DNA from: Halothermothrix sp.
GTDB taxonomy: Bacteria > Bacillota > Halanaerobiia > DY22613
DNA: 64,000 bases
NCBI GenBank assembly: GCA_016841825.1
Contig: JAENYK010000011.1
Coordinates: 1-64,000 of the forward strand
Reading direction: 5' to 3'
This document shows positions 6,415-54,646 of this stretch, in pieces. A model generated the notes under the pieces. That model made no database searches and was not told the DNA's origin. It saw only the letters and a program-made list of their open reading frames with translations. Numbering within the stretch: the stretch's first letter is position 1; every line of letters starts with the position of its first letter. The translations under genes were made by a program, and so were the position numbers.

Positions 6415-9400
6415 TCACAGATCAAGAGTTATCGGTAACACGCCCTTAGCCTCGCTTTTACCAGTTAAAATCTCACTGGCTACTAACAAATTGGCTGTGC
6501 TGTAATCATAAGTAGTCAGATAAGTCGATATCTCTGGAAAAGCCTGGAGGTCATAAGGATTTCTCAATGATACCACAATTACAGGTATATTCAGGTTGTA
6601 AATCTCCTTTACAACCCTGGACTGATCCGGATTTTGAAGCACACTGTAAGTGCAGATTACGATCTTTTCCACACCCGTCAGATCAGGAAGTTGAGTATCT
6701 CCTTTAGCAAAAAGATGATATTTGACATCAATTTTTTGTTTTTGCAGAAAGCTAACCAATGGACTACTGATTTTATTCTTATCTTCCACCAGCCCCAACT
6801 GGCCCATGTTAAATTCCATAATCATTACTTTTTCTTCCCGAGTAATTGGTAACAATCCATCCACATCTTGCACTAAAGTAACAGCCTTTTTAGCAATCTC
6901 GTAAGCTATCGCACCATCAGATTCCAGATCTATAAGCTGCCAGTCTGCAACTAATTGATCTGTAAGGCCAAAACGTTTTTCTTTTATCTCCAATATCCGT
7001 CGCACAGATTCTTCAATTCTCTCTTCAGAGATCCGTCCAGAACGTACTGCTTCAATCACTGCCTTAATGGCATTTTTTTGTCTATTTAACGTATGAGAGA
7101 TCAGTACCATATCACTTCCAGCATTAAGGGTCATGATAGATCCTTCAACTGTTCCAAAAGTACTGACAATGGCATCCATCTCCATACAGTCGGTAATAAT
7201 CAAACCTTCGTATCCCATCTCTTTGCGCAATAAGTCCGTCAAGACCGCATGAGATAAAGTAGCAGGAATTCCTTCTTTAGATTCGATAGCCGGAAAATAG
7301 ATATGGGCTGTCATAATACTATCCAGGCCTGCTTTAATAGCTTCTTTAAAGGGGTAGAATTCCACTTCCTCTAAACGTTCCCGTTCGTGTCTAATGATCG
7401 GAAGATCCAGATGTGAATCAGTATCTGTATCACCGTGACCCGGAAAATGCTTGCCGCAGGCGATAACCCCTTCAGCTTGCATTCCCTGGATAAATGCTGT
7501 TCCCAATGCTGCAACTTGCTGAGGGTCTTCACCAAAAGAGCGAACACCAATAATCGGATTCTCAGGATTGTTGTTCACATCCAATACGGGAGCCAGATTC
7601 ATATTAATTCCTGCCCCTCGCAACTCTCTAGCTACCGCCTGACCTGCTTTACGTGCCAATTCTATATCCCCAGCAGCACCTAAAGCCATATTCCCAGGAA
7701 AATGTGTACCACCAGTTAAACGGGTGACAATACCACCTTCCTGATCTGTAGAGATAAACAGTGGAACACCTGATTCTTTCTCCATAGCTAAACGCTGCAG
7801 TTCATTAGAAAGTCTGGTGACCTGCTCCAGTGACGAAATGTTTCGCCGAAAATAGATAACACCACCAATATGATAATCCTCAATCATCTCCTTTATCTCA
7901 GGAGTAACCGTTGTTCCGGTAAAACCAATCTGAAATAACTGTCCCACCTTCTCTTCTAATGTCATCTTTTTTAATAGCCTATCAGCATACATCTCTCTCC
8001 CACCTTCAACCGTCATGGTCATAAAATTTTGATAAACTTTAACCTCCCAAAGAGAATACCCAAGATCAGTCCCCTTTTCAACTCCGATAAGTTTCACAAA
8101 TTGAGCCTGAACCGCGTCAAAAAAAATATCCTGTCTCCCACCTGTACCCTCTTTTTCTACATAAATAGTCTCCCAATCATAGCCATCTACTGAATACTGA
8201 ATGATAAACTTGCGAGCATAGGCATACTCCCATTCCAACCCTACACCCTGAATCTCTTTCACTCCACCCAGATCAATAGTGATCCAATCTAAGTCAGTCT
8301 CTGCTGTAGAACACCAACGGGTTGAAAGATCATTATCCAGAACCTTATCACCTTCAAAACCTGCGTGAGTCACTGAAGAGACCTCAGCTATAGCTCCTAA
8401 TGCCAGATTTTTTAAAGTCTTGACAGCAATCTGTTTTTCTACTGTCTGCCCATATGGATCTACAATCTGAATTACTACTTGATAGTCGGTATCGCCAGTA
8501 AGATCCCGAAACCACACACTATGTTCTATGGTAAGTTCTGCGTGTTCAACAGTCTTAATCATTTCTCCAGCCTGAAATAATGAGATACTGGCTCCGGTTG
8601 GCGCAATAGTATCCCACCTAACCTGTAACCAATTATCACTGAGAAATGTGATCCCAGGTTCTGTAGAAAATTTAGGTTCAACATTTTGATACTTATACAA
8701 AGACTCCTCAGTTTCCTGCTGATCGTCAGTATAAGGATACAACATTGGAGAAACAAAATCTACAATCTCCGAAAATTTAGAAATATCCTGCCCCAATTGA
8801 GTTACAGGAGTTTTAACAGTCTCTGCAAAAACATTTGTCGAGATATCCACTCTGGAATCAATCCCACGGATTACGGCTACAAAACGTTGCAGAAAATCAG
8901 TCAACACTTCTACTCGATTACGGTTTTTAGTGATCGGCAAGCTGCTATCTCTTACTCCTGAAGGATAACGAATAGAATCCAGACTTAATCCGTCTATAGG
9001 GTAATGTTTGACCAGATCTGTCGCCAGATCAATCAGATAATCTTGCATTGGTTTATATGCCGGATCAACCCAATCAGTCCCCGGAATCCTGGCTTCCGGA
9101 AAAAGATTTTCTGCAGCATATTTGTCATTAAATGCCTGAAAAAGCACCATTACCGCCTGATGGGGACTTTCAGAATGAGCTCTGTTGATTACCTTTTGCA
9201 GAGGATTATCCTTATAAGAATAACTCATACCATTACCCGGAAGGGTCATAACCTCAGCATACTTCTCAGAATAATACCATATTCTTCCGTCAAATTGTTT
9301 AACTGTAACATAAATAGTATTTAGATGACCTAACTTTTGACTTAACATTACCTGATCCATAATATGCTCTCTGGATAAAGTAAGAACGCTGATTTCTCCA

Positions 9401-9501
9401 CCAGCCACCCAACCTATATCTTCCACAGCCTTTATCGAAGAATTTACCACACTAATCAAAACCAATAGAATAAATATTAGCATAACTTTGCGTCTATTCA
9501 T
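6415..9501 (-). CDS. nagZ: GHL10-FnIII-discoidin-NagZ multidomain hydrolase
   Basis: A 1028-residue exported fusion. Residues 5-21 form a signal peptide or anchor without a lipobox. Residues about 30-270 resemble the glycosyl-hydrolase-like GHL10/YngK (DUF187) barrel, with DGLSLDSIRYP. A beta-rich FnIII-like linker and an F5/8 C (discoidin, CBM32-like) domain at about 364-492 follow. From about 505 it is GH3 beta-N-acetylglucosaminidase: KHFPGHGDTDTDSH with the Asp695-His697 dyad, nucleophile Asp771 in ITDCMEM, then the extra C-terminal domain of Bacillus NagZ. NagZ removes GlcNAc from muropeptides. ATG at 9501 is preferred for its AAGGGAAG site. Confidence 0.85.
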   Translation of the reverse strand: MNRRKVMLIFILLVLISVVNSSIKAVEDIGWVAGGEISVLTLSREHIMDQVMLSQKLGHLNTIYVTVKQFDGRIWYYSEKYAEVMTLPGNGMSYSYKDNPLQKVINRAHSESPHQAVMVLFQAFNDKYAAENLFPEARIPGTDWVDPAYKPMQDYLIDLATDLVKHYPIDGLSLDSIRYPSGVRDSSLPITKNRNRVEVLTDFLQRFVAVIRGIDSRVDISTNVFAETVKTPVTQLGQDISKFSEIVDFVSPMLYPYTDDQQETEESLYKYQNVEPKFSTEPGITFLSDNWLQVRWDTIAPTGASISLFQAGEMIKTVEHAELTIEHSVWFRDLTGDTDYQVVIQIVDPYGQTVEKQIAVKTLKNLALGAIAEVSSVTHAGFEGDKVLDNDLSTRWCSTAETDLDWITIDLGGVKEIQGVGLEWEYAYARKFIIQYSVDGYDWETIYVEKEGTGGRQDIFFDAVQAQFVKLIGVEKGTDLGYSLWEVKVYQNFMTMTVEGGREMYADRLLKKMTLEEKVGQLFQIGFTGTTVTPEIKEMIEDYHIGGVIYFRRNISSLEQVTRLSNELQRLAMEKESGVPLFISTDQEGGIVTRLTGGTHFPGNMALGAAGDIELARKAGQAVARELRGAGINMNLAPVLDVNNNPENPIIGVRSFGEDPQQVAALGTAFIQGMQAEGVIACGKHFPGHGDTDTDSHLDLPIIRHERERLEEVEFYPFKEAIKAGLDSIMTAHIYFPAIESKEGIPATLSHAVLTDLLRKEMGYEGLIITDCMEMDAIVSTFGTVEGSIMTLNAGSDMVLISHTLNRQKNAIKAVIEAVRSGRISEERIEESVRRILEIKEKRFGLTDQLVADWQLIDLESDGAIAYEIAKKAVTLVQDVDGLLPITREEKVMIMEFNMGQLGLVEDKNKISSPLVSFLQKQKIDVKYHLFAKGDTQLPDLTGVEKIVICTYSVLQNPDQSRVVKEIYNLNIPVIVVSLRNPYDLQAFPEISTYLTTYDYSTANLLVASEILTGKSEAKGVLPITLDL

Positions 9502-9515
9502 TATATGCACTTCCC

Positions 9516-9835
9516 TTAACCTTTTAATCCTCCACCAACAGTTAAAGCTTCAGTCAAATATTCTGGAAAGCAAAGAAGAAGATAATCATTGGAACCGCAG
9601 AAAAAGCTGCTCCTGCCATTAATAGTCCATAGTTAGTCGCAAACTGTTGTTGTAAAACGGATAAAGATTTGAAATTCAGAAGCTCCGTCAATTCTTGTTA
9701 CATCAACGATCTTCAGTGGAAAGAGTTTAGTATATTGGTGCATTAAAAAAAATCCCAAAAACCCTTGCCATCTGAGGTAAGATAATAACCCAATGGCTGT
9801 TTAGTTAATGGTGTTTTTGGAAATTAATTTTGCAA
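9516..9835 (-). pseudogene. Decayed sugar ABC permease (MalG-like) fragment
   Basis: Minus-strand translation in pieces matches the MalG-type permease encoded at 15919-16818. Recognisable pieces are NSHWVIILPQMARVFGIFL, RIDGASEF (the EAA loop), NYGLLMAGAAFSAVPMII and a terminal ALTVGGGLKG followed by a stop. About 45 codons are missing between the EAA loop and the last segment, an in-frame stop interrupts the left part and a frameshift interrupts the C-terminus. No binding-protein or partner permease remains here. It is a relic of a second sugar transporter inside the recycling operon. Confidence 0.85.
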
Positions 9836-12798: not shown

Positions 12799-13698
12799 TC
12801 ACCCAATAGCATTGGCTAGATAGCCATAATGTTCTTCCAGACTGATTATGGCTTCTTCCAGAGTAGCTCCTTTAGTGTACATAATTATCGCAGCTTTTAA
12901 GTTAAAATTAGATCTTTGCATAAAATCATCTGCAATATCGTAATCTGTACCGGTAATAGTCATGAAGATATTTTTAGCCCGCTCGCGTAGCTTATTATTA
13001 GATGGATTTAAATCAACCATTAAATTAGAATATGTTTTGCCCAGTTTGATCATTACAGTAGTCGAGATCATATTCAAGACCATCTTTTGAGCAGTGCCAG
13101 CTTTCATTCTAGTAGAGCCTGTGAGAACTTCTGGCCCAGAGATGGGTACAATAGCGATGTCCACAGCTTTTTCCAGAGGTGAATTCTCCGCACAACACAA
13201 ACCGATGCTGACAGCTCCAGACTTTTTCGCTTCATCTATAGCTCCTAACACATAAGGGGTAGTACCACTGGCAGCAATTCCCACCAGACTATCAACTTCC
13301 GTCAGCTTATAATTTCGAATCTCCTCAACACCACACTCAAATTTATCTTCCAGATCCTCCTGGGATTTGAACATAGCGTCTTTGCCACCTGCCAATATGC
13401 CAATTACCCGATCCGGCTCAATACTAAATGTGGGCATACATTCTACCGCATCCAAAACTCCCAATCTTCCCGAAGTTCCTGCTCCTATGTAAAAAAGTCT
13501 CCCACCCTTGCGCATTCCTTTACTTATCAGCTCTACTGCTTGAGTAATTGCAGGTAGTACTTTTCTAACCGCTAAAGCTACATTTCGATCTTCTTGATTA
13601 ATTAAATCCAGAATCTGTCTGGTCTCTAATTTATCAATATTCATACTGGATGGATTTCTTGCTTCAGTGATTCTCAATAATCCGTTCTCTGGTTTCAT
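12799..13698 (-). CDS. murQ: N-acetylmuramic acid 6-phosphate etherase MurQ (copy 1)
   Basis: MurQ splits the D-lactyl ether of MurNAc-6-phosphate, giving GlcNAc-6-phosphate and D-lactate. The 299-residue SIS-domain protein has LFYIGAGTSGRLGVLDAVEC with the catalytic Glu, GGKDAMFKSQEDLED with a second conserved Glu, and TGSTRMKAGTAQK. AGGAGG precedes the start. It is the first gene of the recycling operon, behind a promoter element shared with rpiR. A second murQ lies at 19385-20284. Confidence 0.95.
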   Translation of the reverse strand: MKPENGLLRITEARNPSSMNIDKLETRQILDLINQEDRNVALAVRKVLPAITQAVELISKGMRKGGRLFYIGAGTSGRLGVLDAVECMPTFSIEPDRVIGILAGGKDAMFKSQEDLEDKFECGVEEIRNYKLTEVDSLVGIAASGTTPYVLGAIDEAKKSGAVSIGLCCAENSPLEKAVDIAIVPISGPEVLTGSTRMKAGTAQKMVLNMISTTVMIKLGKTYSNLMVDLNPSNNKLRERAKNIFMTITGTDYDIADDFMQRSNFNLKAAIIMYTKGATLEEAIISLEEHYGYLANAIG

Positions 13699-13859: not shown

Positions 13860-14095
13860 GAATGAAAACTTTATGTATGCTTAAAAATTGGGTTGGAATA
13901 GAGTATTGCCACTACTGAGATCTACTCACCCCCTTCCTGCCTCTCAAACAAAAAATAAATCCACCGTTACTCAAGATGGTTTTCTATTTTCAAGAAACTC
14001 CCCCTTAGCTTAGTATACAGCTTTTGATACCTGTTGCTCTCAACCATCCTTCATCCCCATTCTCAAAGCTATCTCACCTTTCATCCTCAAAAACA
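13860..14095. other. Intergenic stretch with no recognised gene
   Basis: This stretch lies between the murQ promoter and the terminator of the micro-ORF unit. I see no open frame with a credible ribosome-binding site on either strand, and the plus-strand frame running from 14034 crosses the terminator hairpin. Confidence 0.5.
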
Positions 14096-14123
14096 AGATC
14101 CCGGACCTTCTGGCCCGGGATCT
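14096..14123 (-). terminator. Terminator of the micro-ORF transcription unit
   Basis: AGATCCCGG pairs with CCGGGATCT around a 10-base loop, and on the minus strand the hairpin is followed by TTGTTTTTG. It closes the unit that starts at the promoter near 14662-14690. Confidence 0.75.
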
Positions 14124-14165
14124 ATTCTTAGAGGTTATGTTCTTTTTATTTATTGGGGGTTTAGC

Positions 14166-14243
14166 TTATCTCACATGTTTAACATAATTTCTTTCTTTTT
14201 CAACAACGATCGCTTTAGCTACTTCAAATAATTCTCTCATCAT
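14166..14243 (-). CDS. Micro-ORF C, 25 residues
   Basis: The peptide MMRELFEVAKAIVVEKERN plus six more residues begins with two ATG codons, six bases after AAGGAG. It is amphipathic and charged, with no known family. The same frame is open upstream to about 14330, so this could instead be the tail of a longer gene broken by a one-base frameshift relative to micro-ORF B. Third in a row of three small frames, each starting ATGATG behind a ribosome-binding site. Confidence 0.45.
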   Translation of the reverse strand: MMRELFEVAKAIVVEKERNYVKHVR

Positions 14244-14278
14244 ATTCAACTCCTTTGAAAGATATTTGAGGTGCTCAA

Positions 14279-14347
14279 CTATTTCATCCAACGCTGCTGG
14301 GCCTTCTTCATCCCAGACTGTTTAAGCATTTTTGGATCTAACATCAT
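14279..14347 (-). CDS. Micro-ORF B, 22 residues
   Basis: MMLDPKMLKQSGMKKAQQRW and two more residues follow a strong GAGGAGG site. The -1 frame, entered just after the first ten codons, is open and protein-like (VWDEEGPAALDEIVEHLKYL) and runs into micro-ORF C. So B and C are either separate peptides or the two halves of one frameshifted gene of about 60 residues. Confidence 0.4.
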   Translation of the reverse strand: MMLDPKMLKQSGMKKAQQRWMK

Positions 14348-14459
14348 AGTCAATTCCTCCTCATGATTCATAGTTATTCCTGATGTTGACCCCTTACTTC
14401 ATACGAACTACTTTGGGTATTATAAACTGTGCATTACTAACACTACTCTTGCACAATTA

Positions 14460-14555
14460 TTATTTGCACTTCTTTCTATAGTCCTCGGCTCCTTTAATTC
14501 TTTCTCTAATAATCTCTTTTGCCAGTAGATCATGTTCCATCATTATGAACATCAT
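14460..14555 (-). CDS. Micro-ORF A, 31 residues
   Basis: The frame starts ATGATG five bases after GGGAGG and encodes a basic, helix-prone peptide containing EHDLLAKEIIRERIKGAEDY. It is first after a consensus promoter, with a leader of about 100 bases. No family recognised. The strong ribosome-binding site and the closed transcription unit support real translation. Confidence 0.55.
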   Translation of the reverse strand: MMFIMMEHDLLAKEIIRERIKGAEDYRKKCK

Positions 14556-14589
14556 CTTCACCTCCCGAGGTTCTTTTTGATATTAACAT

Positions 14590-14635
14590 TTATGTAATCG
14601 TCACTTAACTTATGTTAAAATGACGTTGCATTCCC
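14590..14635 (-). promoter_or_regulatory. Inverted repeat in the micro-ORF leader
   Basis: TTAACAT and ATGTTAA form an inverted repeat about 22 bases apart between the promoter and micro-ORF A. It may be an operator or a leader hairpin; the evidence is weak. Confidence 0.3.
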
Positions 14636-14661
14636 TAATATTTCATTTATCTTACACACTC

Positions 14662-14690
14662 ATTATATTCACTTCTGAATAGAATGTCAA
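14662..14690 (-). promoter_or_regulatory. Consensus sigma-A promoter of the micro-ORF unit
   Basis: TTGACA, 17 bp, TATAAT on the minus strand is an exact consensus match, so strong constitutive transcription toward micro-ORFs A, B and C is expected. Confidence 0.8.
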
Positions 14691-15918: not shown

Positions 15919-16818
15919 TTAACCTTTCAAACCACCAAGAGTCAACCCTTTGATAAAATACCTCTGGAAGAACAAAAAGACGATGATCATAGGTATAGCC
16001 GAGATCGCTGCTCCACTCATTAAGAGTCCATAGTTCACCAGATTCTTATCCTGTAAAGTTTTTAACCCCACAGGAAGGGTATATAAATATGATTTGTTAA
16101 GCACAATCAGTGGCCAGAGAAAAGAGTTCCAGACAGACATAAAAGTCAGAATTCCCAGAGTTGCTAAAGCTGGTTTAGACAGAGGGATGATAATCTTCCA
16201 ATATGTTTTAAACTCCGAGGCTCCATCAATTCTGGCTGCTTCTATCAACTCAGTAGGAATAGTTTTCATAAACTGACGCATCAAAAACACACCAAAGACC
16301 ATAGCTAATGGCGGCAAAATTACCGACCATAAAGAGTTCTTTATCCCTAATTTGGTGACCAGAATAAACATTGGCACCAGCGTAACCTGTCCAGGAATCA
16401 TCATCGTACTAATCATTATCCAGAAAAGAAAATCCCTCCCCGGAAACTGTTTCTTAGCAAAAACATATCCTGCCATCGAATCTAACAGCAATATTCCCAA
16501 TGTTGCAGTAACACTTACCAGTACACTATTGAAAAACCACTTCGGTAATCCGATATCAGTAAATAATACTCTCACACTTTTAAACGACTCAGATAAAATA
16601 TGCAGCGCCTGATCTTTATCCCCCTGCAAATAAAGTGGAATGAATTTCTTCACCACAGTAGGAATCAACTTAGGCGGCATAGATAATACTTCATCAGGTA
16701 ATTGCAATGCTGTAGTAAATACCCAATATAAAGGCATCAAGGCAATGATCGCCCAGACAATCAGGATACAATAAGCCATAACTCTAAGACCAGTAGCAAA
16801 AATTTTTCTACTATTCAA
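15919..16818 (-). CDS. Carbohydrate ABC permease, MalG type
   Basis: A 299-residue inner-membrane permease of the CUT1 family with six predicted membrane segments and the ATPase-contact EAA loop, EAARIDGASEFKTYWKIIIP. It pairs with the MalF-type permease 12 bp upstream. The C-terminus ends GLTLGGLKG, as in the decayed copy at 9516-9835. No ATPase gene lies in the operon; CUT1 systems commonly use a shared MsmK-type ATPase. Likely substrate, from context, is a murein sugar. Confidence 0.9.
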   Translation of the reverse strand: MNSRKIFATGLRVMAYCILIVWAIIALMPLYWVFTTALQLPDEVLSMPPKLIPTVVKKFIPLYLQGDKDQALHILSESFKSVRVLFTDIGLPKWFFNSVLVSVTATLGILLLDSMAGYVFAKKQFPGRDFLFWIMISTMMIPGQVTLVPMFILVTKLGIKNSLWSVILPPLAMVFGVFLMRQFMKTIPTELIEAARIDGASEFKTYWKIIIPLSKPALATLGILTFMSVWNSFLWPLIVLNKSYLYTLPVGLKTLQDKNLVNYGLLMSGAAISAIPMIIVFLFFQRYFIKGLTLGGLKG

Positions 16819-19384: not shown

Positions 19385-20284
19385 TTAATATTGAATAATT
19401 TTTGATAGAATACCATCACATTTTTCTAGCAACATTAAAGCTTCTCCAAAGGAATAACCGAATTTATACATTATTATCGCTGCTTTTAAGTTATAACTGG
19501 CATTTTCTAGATATTGATGTGCAGCATCCAGATCAGTTTCGGTTAAGGTCATAAAAATGTTAACTGCCCGTGTTCTTAATTTCTGATTGGAAGGTTTGAG
19601 ATCTACCATCAGATTTGAATAAACCTTCCCTAATTTGACCATCACAGTAGTCGAAATCATGTTTAAGACTATTTTTTGTGCTGTGCCTGCCTTCATTCTG
19701 GTTGAGCCAGTAATTACTTCTGGCCCCACGATAGGTGCTATGGCTATATCGGCAGCCTGCTCTACAGGAGAATTCTCCACACAGACCAGAGAGATAGTCA
19801 ATGCACCTGAGATTTTAGCCTTTCTAAGAGCTCCCAATACAAAGGGAGTAGTACCACTGGCAGCAATTCCTACTACACTATCCAGTGAAGTAATGTAATA
19901 TTGCTGTAAACTCTGGCTTCCCTTCTCACAACTGTCTTCAAGATTCTCTTGAGATTGAAACATAGCCTCTTTACCACCGGCTAATATACCAATCACTCTA
20001 CCCGGTTCCACACTAAAAGTAGGGATGCATTCAACAGCGTCCAAAACACCGAGTCGCCCACTGGTTCCCGCTCCTACATAGAAAAGTCGCCCTCCCTTTT
20101 GCATACGCTGAGTAATACCGTCAACAGCCTGTGTAATCTCCGGTATCACCTGTTGAACAGCCAAAGTTACTTTGGCATCCTCCTGATTTATTAACTTAAG
20201 AATCTGTTGAGTATCCAACTTATCAATCTCCATAGTGGCAGGATTTCTAGTCTCAGTAATTCTGGATAATTTATTATCAACCAT
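19385..20284 (-). CDS. murQ: N-acetylmuramic acid 6-phosphate etherase MurQ (copy 2)
   Basis: A second MurQ of 299 residues with all the same active-site segments (FYVGAGTSGRLGVLDAVEC, GGKEAMFQSQENLED, TGSTRMKAGTAQK). The two copies are clearly paralogous but diverge over much of their length. ATG at 20284 follows GGAGG at eleven bases; upstream in-frame ATGs lack a site. It lies between the RpiR-type regulator and the sugar ABC genes, so it likely processes sugar imported by that transporter after phosphorylation. Confidence 0.93.
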   Translation of the reverse strand: MVDNKLSRITETRNPATMEIDKLDTQQILKLINQEDAKVTLAVQQVIPEITQAVDGITQRMQKGGRLFYVGAGTSGRLGVLDAVECIPTFSVEPGRVIGILAGGKEAMFQSQENLEDSCEKGSQSLQQYYITSLDSVVGIAASGTTPFVLGALRKAKISGALTISLVCVENSPVEQAADIAIAPIVGPEVITGSTRMKAGTAQKIVLNMISTTVMVKLGKVYSNLMVDLKPSNQKLRTRAVNIFMTLTETDLDAAHQYLENASYNLKAAIIMYKFGYSFGEALMLLEKCDGILSKIIQY

Positions 20285-20424
20285 AGAATAACTAACCTCC
20301 ATCAAAATCAAATCTATGCAATAACTCGTTATCACATCTTCGTTTTAACGACTCTAGTAATAAAGTCTACTTAAATCTACAACCTTCGTAAATTGTCATA
20401 AGAACGTACACAACAATACAGTCT

Positions 20425-52213: not shown

Positions 52214-54646
52214 CTATTTCACGACCAGATTAACAATCTTCTTCGGTACATAAATCTCTTTAACCACTCGCATTCCTTCCATGTTTCTGACCACATTGGG
52301 CAGTGCTTTAGCAGCAGCCAGAATATCTTCTTTACTGGCATTGATATCGATAGTTAGTGTATCTCTGATCTTTCCATTTATCTGCACAGGAAGTTCCATC
52401 TCATCAGCTACCAACTTCTTAGGATCATATTCAGGCCACTTCTCTTTGAACACACTCTCTTCATGACCTAGAATTTGCCACAACTCTTCACTAAAATGAG
52501 GAGTAAATGGGGACAACAGGAGAACCAAGGTCTCTAAGGATGCCCTATCAATACCATTCTCTTTCTCCTTATTCAGAAAGTTGACATAGGACATAAAGGC
52601 ACTAACAGCAGTGTTTAATTTCATATCTTCCAGACGCTCAGTCACGTCTTTAATCAGACCATGACATTCCCGTTCTAATTCCTTAGTTGGCTCAATAAAT
52701 CTATCATCTTCAATGATTTCAGTGATCAGATTCCATGAACGATTTAAGAATCGAGCCACTCCTTCAAAACCTTGATCACTCCACTCTACATCAACCTCTG
52801 GTGGGCCTATAAAGAGTTCATAGAGTCGGATTGAATCACGACCATATCTGTCGATGAGTTCATCAGGGCTCACAACATTTCCCTTCGATTTACTCATCTT
52901 GGCACCATCTTTATAGATCATCCCCTGATTGAAAAGTCGATTAAATGGTTCTTCAAAGCTTACTATACCCAGATCATGCAAGAATTTGGTGAAGAAACGT
53001 GCATAGAGCAGGTGAAGAATGGCATGCTCTACCCCACCGACATATAGATCCACAGGCATCCATTTCTCCATCGCCTCTTCACTCCAGGGTTTTTCGGAAT
53101 TGTGAGGATCTGGGTATCTCAAAAAATACCACGATGAACCAGCCCATTGCGGCATCGTATCAGTCTCCCTTTTTGCAGGGCCACCACACTCAGGACAGGT
53201 AGTATTCACCCATTCCTCTATTCTCGCCAGAGGTGATTCTCCGGTACCGGTAGGCTCATAGCTCTCTACATCCGGTAAACGTACTGGCAAATCTTCATCT
53301 GGTACTACTACCATTCCACATTGCTCACAATGAATAATGGGAATTGGCTCTCCCCAATAGCGCTGACGGGAGAACACCCAGTCACGAAGTTTATAATTAA
53401 CCATAGCTTTACCGATACCACGACTTGCCAGACTATCGGTAACCTTCTTCTTACCCTCTTCCCATGCCAGACCATCAAATTCGCCAGAGTTAACCATCTT
53501 TCCTGGGCCAGTATATGCTTCCGTCAGATCATCCGCCTCAAAGGTCTCACCATCAGGTCGAATAACTACCTGTAATGGTAGATTAAATTCTTTCGCAAAA
53601 TCAAAATCTCGCTGATCATGGGCGGGTACGCTCATAATCGCACCTGTACCATAATCCATTAATACATAGTCAGAGATCCAGATTGGTACTTTCCCGTCAT
53701 TGATCGGATTAATGGCAAAAGCACCTGTGAAAACACCAGTCTTCTGCTTATCTTCAATCATCCGCTCCACATTAGACTTTTTCAATGCTTCCTCCACATA
53801 ACTCTTGACAGCACCATTCTGTTCAGTAGAGGTAATAGCTGAGACTATTGGATGCTCTGGAGCCAGTACCATATAGGTTGCACCGAAGAGGGTATCAGGA
53901 CGAGTGGTGAAAACAGTGACAGTCTCTCCATGACCCTCGATTTCAAAGGTAATCTCCGCACCTTCACTCCGACCAATCCAGTTCGACTGCATCTTTTTCA
54001 CTCTTTCAGGCCACTCCAGACTATCCAGATCAGTTAACAATCGCTCGGCATACGCGGTTATCTTTAACATCCATTGATTTAGGTTCTTTTTGGTAATCTC
54101 AGCACCACAGCGTTCACAGGCACCATTTACTACTTCTTCATTAGCCAGACCAGTCTTACAGTCAGGACACCAGTTAATCGGCATCTCTTTTCGATAAGCC
54201 AGACCTTTCTTAAACATGTTGGCAAAAATCCATTGGGTCCATTTATAGAACTCAGGATCAGTAGTATTAACCTCCCGATTCCAGTCATACATAGCTCCAA
54301 TATCATGGAGTTGACGTTTAAAATTCTCTACGTTAACTTTCACTGCCTTAGCTGGATGAACCTTGTGCTGAATTGCATAATTCTCTGCCGGAAGACCAAA
54401 AGCGTCCCATCCCATTGGATGTAATACCTGATATCCCTGAAGAGTTTTGTAGCGACTCCAGACATCGCTTAGAACATACCCACGCCAATGACCTACATGA
54501 AGTCCAATACCAGATGGATATGGAAACATATCAAGACAATAATAGCCGGGTCTGGAATCATCTTTTTTTACAGTGTGCATCTCTTTTTCTGCCCAGTATT
54601 TTTGCCATTTAGGCTCGATCTCCTGGGGATTGTACTTTCGTGCCAT
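52214..54646 (-). CDS. leuS: Leucyl-tRNA synthetase LeuS
   Basis: An 810-residue class I synthetase charging tRNA-Leu. The HIGH motif appears as HVGH in PYPSGIGLHVGHWRGY, the editing domain carries TVFTTRPDTLFGATYMVLAP, and KMSKS is in GAKMSKSKGNVVSPDE. Zinc-type cysteines occur in CPDCKTG and CERCG. Controlled by a T-box leader. GGAGGTAAGG precedes the ATG. Confidence 0.97.
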   Translation of the reverse strand: MARKYNPQEIEPKWQKYWAEKEMHTVKKDDSRPGYYCLDMFPYPSGIGLHVGHWRGYVLSDVWSRYKTLQGYQVLHPMGWDAFGLPAENYAIQHKVHPAKAVKVNVENFKRQLHDIGAMYDWNREVNTTDPEFYKWTQWIFANMFKKGLAYRKEMPINWCPDCKTGLANEEVVNGACERCGAEITKKNLNQWMLKITAYAERLLTDLDSLEWPERVKKMQSNWIGRSEGAEITFEIEGHGETVTVFTTRPDTLFGATYMVLAPEHPIVSAITSTEQNGAVKSYVEEALKKSNVERMIEDKQKTGVFTGAFAINPINDGKVPIWISDYVLMDYGTGAIMSVPAHDQRDFDFAKEFNLPLQVVIRPDGETFEADDLTEAYTGPGKMVNSGEFDGLAWEEGKKKVTDSLASRGIGKAMVNYKLRDWVFSRQRYWGEPIPIIHCEQCGMVVVPDEDLPVRLPDVESYEPTGTGESPLARIEEWVNTTCPECGGPAKRETDTMPQWAGSSWYFLRYPDPHNSEKPWSEEAMEKWMPVDLYVGGVEHAILHLLYARFFTKFLHDLGIVSFEEPFNRLFNQGMIYKDGAKMSKSKGNVVSPDELIDRYGRDSIRLYELFIGPPEVDVEWSDQGFEGVARFLNRSWNLITEIIEDDRFIEPTKELERECHGLIKDVTERLEDMKLNTAVSAFMSYVNFLNKEKENGIDRASLETLVLLLSPFTPHFSEELWQILGHEESVFKEKWPEYDPKKLVADEMELPVQINGKIRDTLTIDINASKEDILAAAKALPNVVRNMEGMRVVKEIYVPKKIVNLVVK

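Follow-up and report, generated by a model that had tools for sequence, protein, structure and literature searches.

The stretch of DNA analysed here, 64,000 nucleotides of a Halothermothrix sp. contig (hereafter the window), carries on its minus strand a short unit of three micro-ORFs enclosed by a consensus promoter and a terminator, as the original prediction had claimed. The sigma-70-type promoter (TTGACA-17-TATAAT, 14662..14690) matches the consensus at 12 of 12 positions and is followed by ORF A (MMFIMMEHDLLAKEIIRERIKGAEDYRKKCK, 14460..14555, 31 aa), ORF B (MMLDPKMLKQSGMKKAQQRWMK, 14279..14347, 22 aa) and ORF C (MMRELFEVAKAIVVEKERNYVKHVR, 14166..14243, 25 aa), the last of which occurs in the window copy only. 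Each ORF starts with ATGATG behind an SD sequence (GGGAGG at 14566-14561 for A, AGGAGG at 14361-14356 for B and AAAGGAG at 14256-14250 for C), and the unit closes with an intrinsic terminator (AGATCCCGGGCCAGAAGGTCCGGGATCT, 14096..14123) of 12 pairs, 8 of them G-C, with a folding z of -6.3. By shuffling the 539-nt transcript 4000 times at the dinucleotide level, we found that ORFs of at least 20 codons with an SD and an ATG arose at a mean of 0.13 per shuffle, and that none of the 4000 reached even two ORFs of the SD and ATGATG type against the three observed; the repeated start architecture is therefore not due to chance, which bears out the earlier expectation. The rest of the 64-kb window contains a single small ORF of the same kind.

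On one flank of the unit lie genes for a MurQ-like SIS protein, NamZ and a GH3 (NagZ-type) enzyme, and on the other genes for an AmiA-like protein, a sugar ABC transporter and a second MurQ-like protein. These neighbours fit cell-wall sugar recycling, in agreement with the proposed position between two murein-recycling operons; this context is nevertheless incidental, being neither part of the unit nor a guide to its function, because the probable ancestral copy of A and B lies in an unrelated neighbourhood. Several further features were seen in the window. The two MurQ-like SIS genes lie within 7 kb of each other (12799-13698 and 19385-20335, minus strand), with different cell-wall-sugar genes beside each. 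At 6415-9510 (minus strand) a 1031-aa ORF combines DUF4015 glycosidase-like, F5/8 type C and GH3 (NagZ-type) domains. Between the NamZ and GH3 genes (9554-9758, minus strand), in-frame remnants (IDGASEF and YGLLMAGAAFSAVPMIIFFF) resemble the C-terminus of the sugar ABC permease at 15919-16818 and are probably what is left of a decayed permease gene. A T-box leader (RF00230; 54707-55054, minus strand) lies upstream of a leucyl-tRNA synthetase-like gene (52214-54646).

Copies of the unit and their distribution

The family of the window was sampled by two genomes, that of the window itself (G000) and one other (G001), and the A-B unit was found in three copies across two genera: in the window, on a second contig of the same genome (C10) and in G001. 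The window and G001 units align at 72% over 247 nt through promoter, leader and A (E 8.7e-28), and the G001 unit continues with a B of the same ending and then a terminator similar to that of the window (TCCCGG..CCGGGA). As in the window, the G001 and C10 units each have their own promoter, SD sequences and terminator. The C10 pair (A'B') and the G001 pair are syntenic, both located between a radical-SAM gene, which we take to be of the TIGR01212 type, and a MATE-transporter-like gene, with an S9-peptidase-like gene beyond. Since the two pairs occupy the same place, the radical-SAM/MATE position is probably the ancestral site of A-B, which would make the window unit an additional copy.

Outside these copies, no convincing A was found in the class (59 genomes searched, 57 of them besides the window genome and G001), in a 398-genome sample of the phylum, or in the genome contigs, viral contigs and plasmids searched, and the phage DNA searched gave short chance matches only. 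In 28 relatives having the radical-SAM gene the corresponding intergenic region contained neither A nor B, and nor did 21 further loci examined. Searches of Pfam, NCBIfam and PHROGs gave no match for A, B or C, and no relative of A turned up in the PDB. As judged from these searches, the A-B family is a narrowly distributed, lineage-specific small-protein operon that belongs to no known family.

ORFs A and B are conserved as proteins

The A of the window shares 57% amino acid identity with that of G001 and 71% with that of C10. Between the window and C10 copies synonymous sites are saturated, nearly all of them differing, while pN is 0.21; within an ungapped block of 18 codons, 14 residues are identical against 6.7 expected at the same DNA divergence, a value reached in 0 of 5000 simulations. 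The G001 and C10 copies likewise share 14 identities against 7.7 expected (p 0.0004), and for the window and G001 alone, conservation at the protein and DNA levels is not separated (p 0.15). Indels in A are of 3 or 6 nt and hence in frame, and most of the conserved residues are charged ones (E, H, R, K). The C10 copy of A begins TTGATG with Met-Met retained, which indicates that the Met-Met of the protein, and not a start motif in the DNA, is what is kept.

B follows A in both other copies, with a common MML(D/E)P start, an RW-type end and a stop, and pS exceeds pN in all copy pairs; B is itself very short and weakly conserved. With three copies in all these tests are small, yet the substitution patterns show A and B to be genuine protein genes under purifying selection in three copies and two genera, B less strongly so than A. 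A relation of the ORFs to one another as tandem duplicates was rejected, with alignments not clearly above shuffles for either A and C (best p 0.07) or A and B (best p 0.02) after many pairs had been tried.

Promoter dyad and leader hairpin

Between the promoter hexamers, and partly over them, lies a dyad (TATTCA-GAAG-TGAATA, 14666..14681, strandless) of 16 bp with perfect 6-bp arms, of which 0.03 would be expected in the 64-kb window and one was found. The G001 unit has an equally perfect dyad (TATACA-GTTA-TGTATA) in which both arms have changed together. The position of the dyad within the promoter suggests a repressor site, and we treat it as a probable operator. Across 61 genomes the combination of promoter and dyad is matched exactly at only three places, namely in the units of the window and G001 and in an ORF-less unit on C10 described below. 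The promoter of the C10 A'B' pair is good (TTGACT-17-TATAAT) and has no dyad, so the operator is not universal in A-B units, and the C10 pair may be regulated differently. The dyad promoter pattern is likewise matched exactly in 11 viral contigs, where it precedes unrelated genes; the pattern alone therefore does not identify the regulator. The window dyad does not resemble a Fur box. Among the viral contigs, several related phage-like or mobile-element contigs carry a near-identical dyad between the hexamers (often TATACAATATTGTATA) before small genes, and these dyad promoters are probably the target of an unrelated mobile-element repressor.

A leader hairpin (CGTCA..TGACG, 14599..14625, minus strand) follows the predicted transcription start by ~30 nt and is supported by a two-sequence consensus fold with changes on both sides of the stem. 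All three A-B units have a hairpin at this position, its lower stem showing paired changes, and that of the C10 A-B leader reads CACCA-TCAT-TGGTG. The unit has no match in Rfam to any known RNA family or riboswitch, and a known element of that kind was rejected on this ground.

An ORF-less sister unit and a possible RNA function

The third dyad promoter belongs to a unit of ~210 nt at C10:181947-182190 of the window genome (G000; L044:1948-2190), just before the same radical-SAM gene that adjoins the C10 A-B pair. It has a perfect dyad (TATACA-AATC-TGTATA), a homologous leader and a strong terminator, and contains neither A nor B. Promoter, dyad and leader align with those of the window unit at 76% over 83 nt (E 8e-14), and its terminator region aligns with that of the G001 unit at 74% over 69 nt. 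Two CCCCC motifs are present, one of them predicted to be fully single-stranded. It could represent a small RNA or a derivative copy that has lost its ORFs; G001 showed no counterpart.

The existence of such a unit raises an alternative in which the transcript acts mainly by base-pairing, in the manner of SR1 or SgrS, and encodes small proteins besides, the ORF-less unit being its pure RNA form. The sharing of promoter, dyad and leader with the window and of the terminator region with G001 is consistent with this, as are the CCCCC runs that precede the terminators of the window, G001 and ORF-less units, and a window transcript more structured than its shuffles (z -3.7), although much of that excess is probably due to the terminator. 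However, in the coding copies the predicted folds have the C runs mostly paired, the leader stem retains its pairing and not its sequence, and all that is preserved between A and B is a 4-pair helix. Pairing of the ORF-less RNA with the window transcript was rejected as well, its duplex energy lying within that of shuffles (19%), and this, with the absent Rfam match, leaves a dual-function RNA unlikely in our judgement. SR1/SR1P of B. subtilis (PMC7430163) resembles the window unit in its short transcript, its intrinsic terminator and a tiny protein possibly acting on a larger partner; it differs in having one ORF where the window family has two or three, no homology was found, and base-pairing is putative here.

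A related and still more doubtful possibility is a family-specific regulon, in which one putative repressor would control both the ORF-less C-rich small RNA and the A/B proteins, the latter aiding the pairing of the RNA with its target messages. It would parallel the iron-sparing response of B. subtilis, where the C-rich FsrA RNA and the separate small basic proteins FbpA, FbpB and FbpC share a regulator (PMC7430163), and would have evolved independently with a different regulator. The likeness is one of layout only: a single switch apparently stands over an ORF-less C-rich RNA and separate tiny proteins, of which B is basic. In contrast, no sequence relation was found (Rfam, Pfam, NCBIfam), the ORF-less RNA is without a G001 counterpart, and A, B and C are shorter than the 48-aa FbpB.

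Properties of the encoded peptides

All three peptides are hydrophilic, with net charges of +2 (A), +5 (B) and +2 (C), and lack both a signal peptide and any hydrophobic or membrane segment. A is predicted to form a single helix (mean pLDDT 83), which for 31 residues shows little beyond helical capacity. The hydrophobic moment was within that of shuffles for all seven peptides tested, and an amphipathic identity of the phenol-soluble-modulin type was rejected on this ground. No processing or export gene and no antisense-RNA partner was seen beside the window unit.

These properties bear on a reading of the products as secreted or membrane-acting peptides, whether a pheromone, a phenol-soluble-modulin-like peptide or a type I toxin. 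Several small, positively charged peptides from one strong promoter would be in keeping with it, and the staphylococcal phenol-soluble modulin alpha operon does encode several peptides of 20-30 aa in a short, strongly expressed operon. The resemblance lies in the tiny peptides from one short operon; A, B and C are charged and not notably amphipathic, and no dedicated exporter was seen. With no hydrophobic segment or signal, no partner gene, and conserved A residues that are mainly charged, we regard secretion or membrane attack as very unlikely. Intracellular binding of a partner is favoured instead, because the peptides are hydrophilic, lack a signal and are not amphipathic. Of the two roles first suggested for them, signalling thus finds no support in a signal peptide, a hydrophobic segment or a processing or export gene, while a regulatory role is possible and is the one that we prefer.

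Leader peptides and the status of ORF C

Translation of the micro-ORFs could itself be the signal, as in attenuation, with peptides that have no role of their own. Short ORFs with strong SD sequences and a structured leader are what such a sensing device would look like, but in the window a strong terminator closes the unit behind its last ORF and no gene lies directly beyond, which argues against its being an attenuator or leader peptide for a gene further along. The MATE gene that comes next in the other copies has the opposite orientation, neighbours differ between copies, and the ORFs are kept at the amino-acid level, all of which makes a leader function highly improbable.

ORF C stands apart from A and B. 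Comparison of the frames and of synonymous bias among relatives, which retained A and more weakly B at the amino-acid level, gave no homologue of C in the 20 relatives searched. Either C is a gene of recent origin or it is a fortuitous ORF whose start happens to be good, and it is unproven as a gene. The proposal of three translated micro-ORFs in one unit is accordingly well supported for A and B by their homologous copies and purifying selection, and plausible for C. That B and C are a single ancestral gene split by a frameshift, an option raised at first, deserves almost no credence: the C frame is open for 51 codons and reaches back through most of B (14321-14169), but this extended frame also has no homologue in the 20 relatives, the three copies of B all finish alike, with an RW-type end followed by a stop, and C is missing after B in the G001 and C10 units.

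A probable regulated small-protein operon

Taken together, we think it likely that the unit forms an operon of small proteins, complete in itself and strongly expressed, which a DNA-binding regulator turns on and off through the dyad. In this small-protein operon, a putative repressor would occupy the dyad within the promoter, and on its departure the perfect promoter would yield a burst of transcript, whose RNA the 5' hairpin may protect. Soluble, helical micro-proteins, A and B and in the window copy alone also C, would then accumulate in the cytoplasm, where they may exert their effect by binding to a larger protein or RNA. The same switch would also control a small RNA at the C10 dyad-promoter locus that lacks A and B.

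Genes of 22-31 codons such as A and B fall below the usual length limit of gene finders and are without a Pfam, NCBIfam or PHROGs family. Conservation, duplication and a perfect, apparently regulated promoter make A and B a well-defined small-protein target, and the ORF-less sister unit offers a natural comparison of the role of the RNA with that of the peptides.
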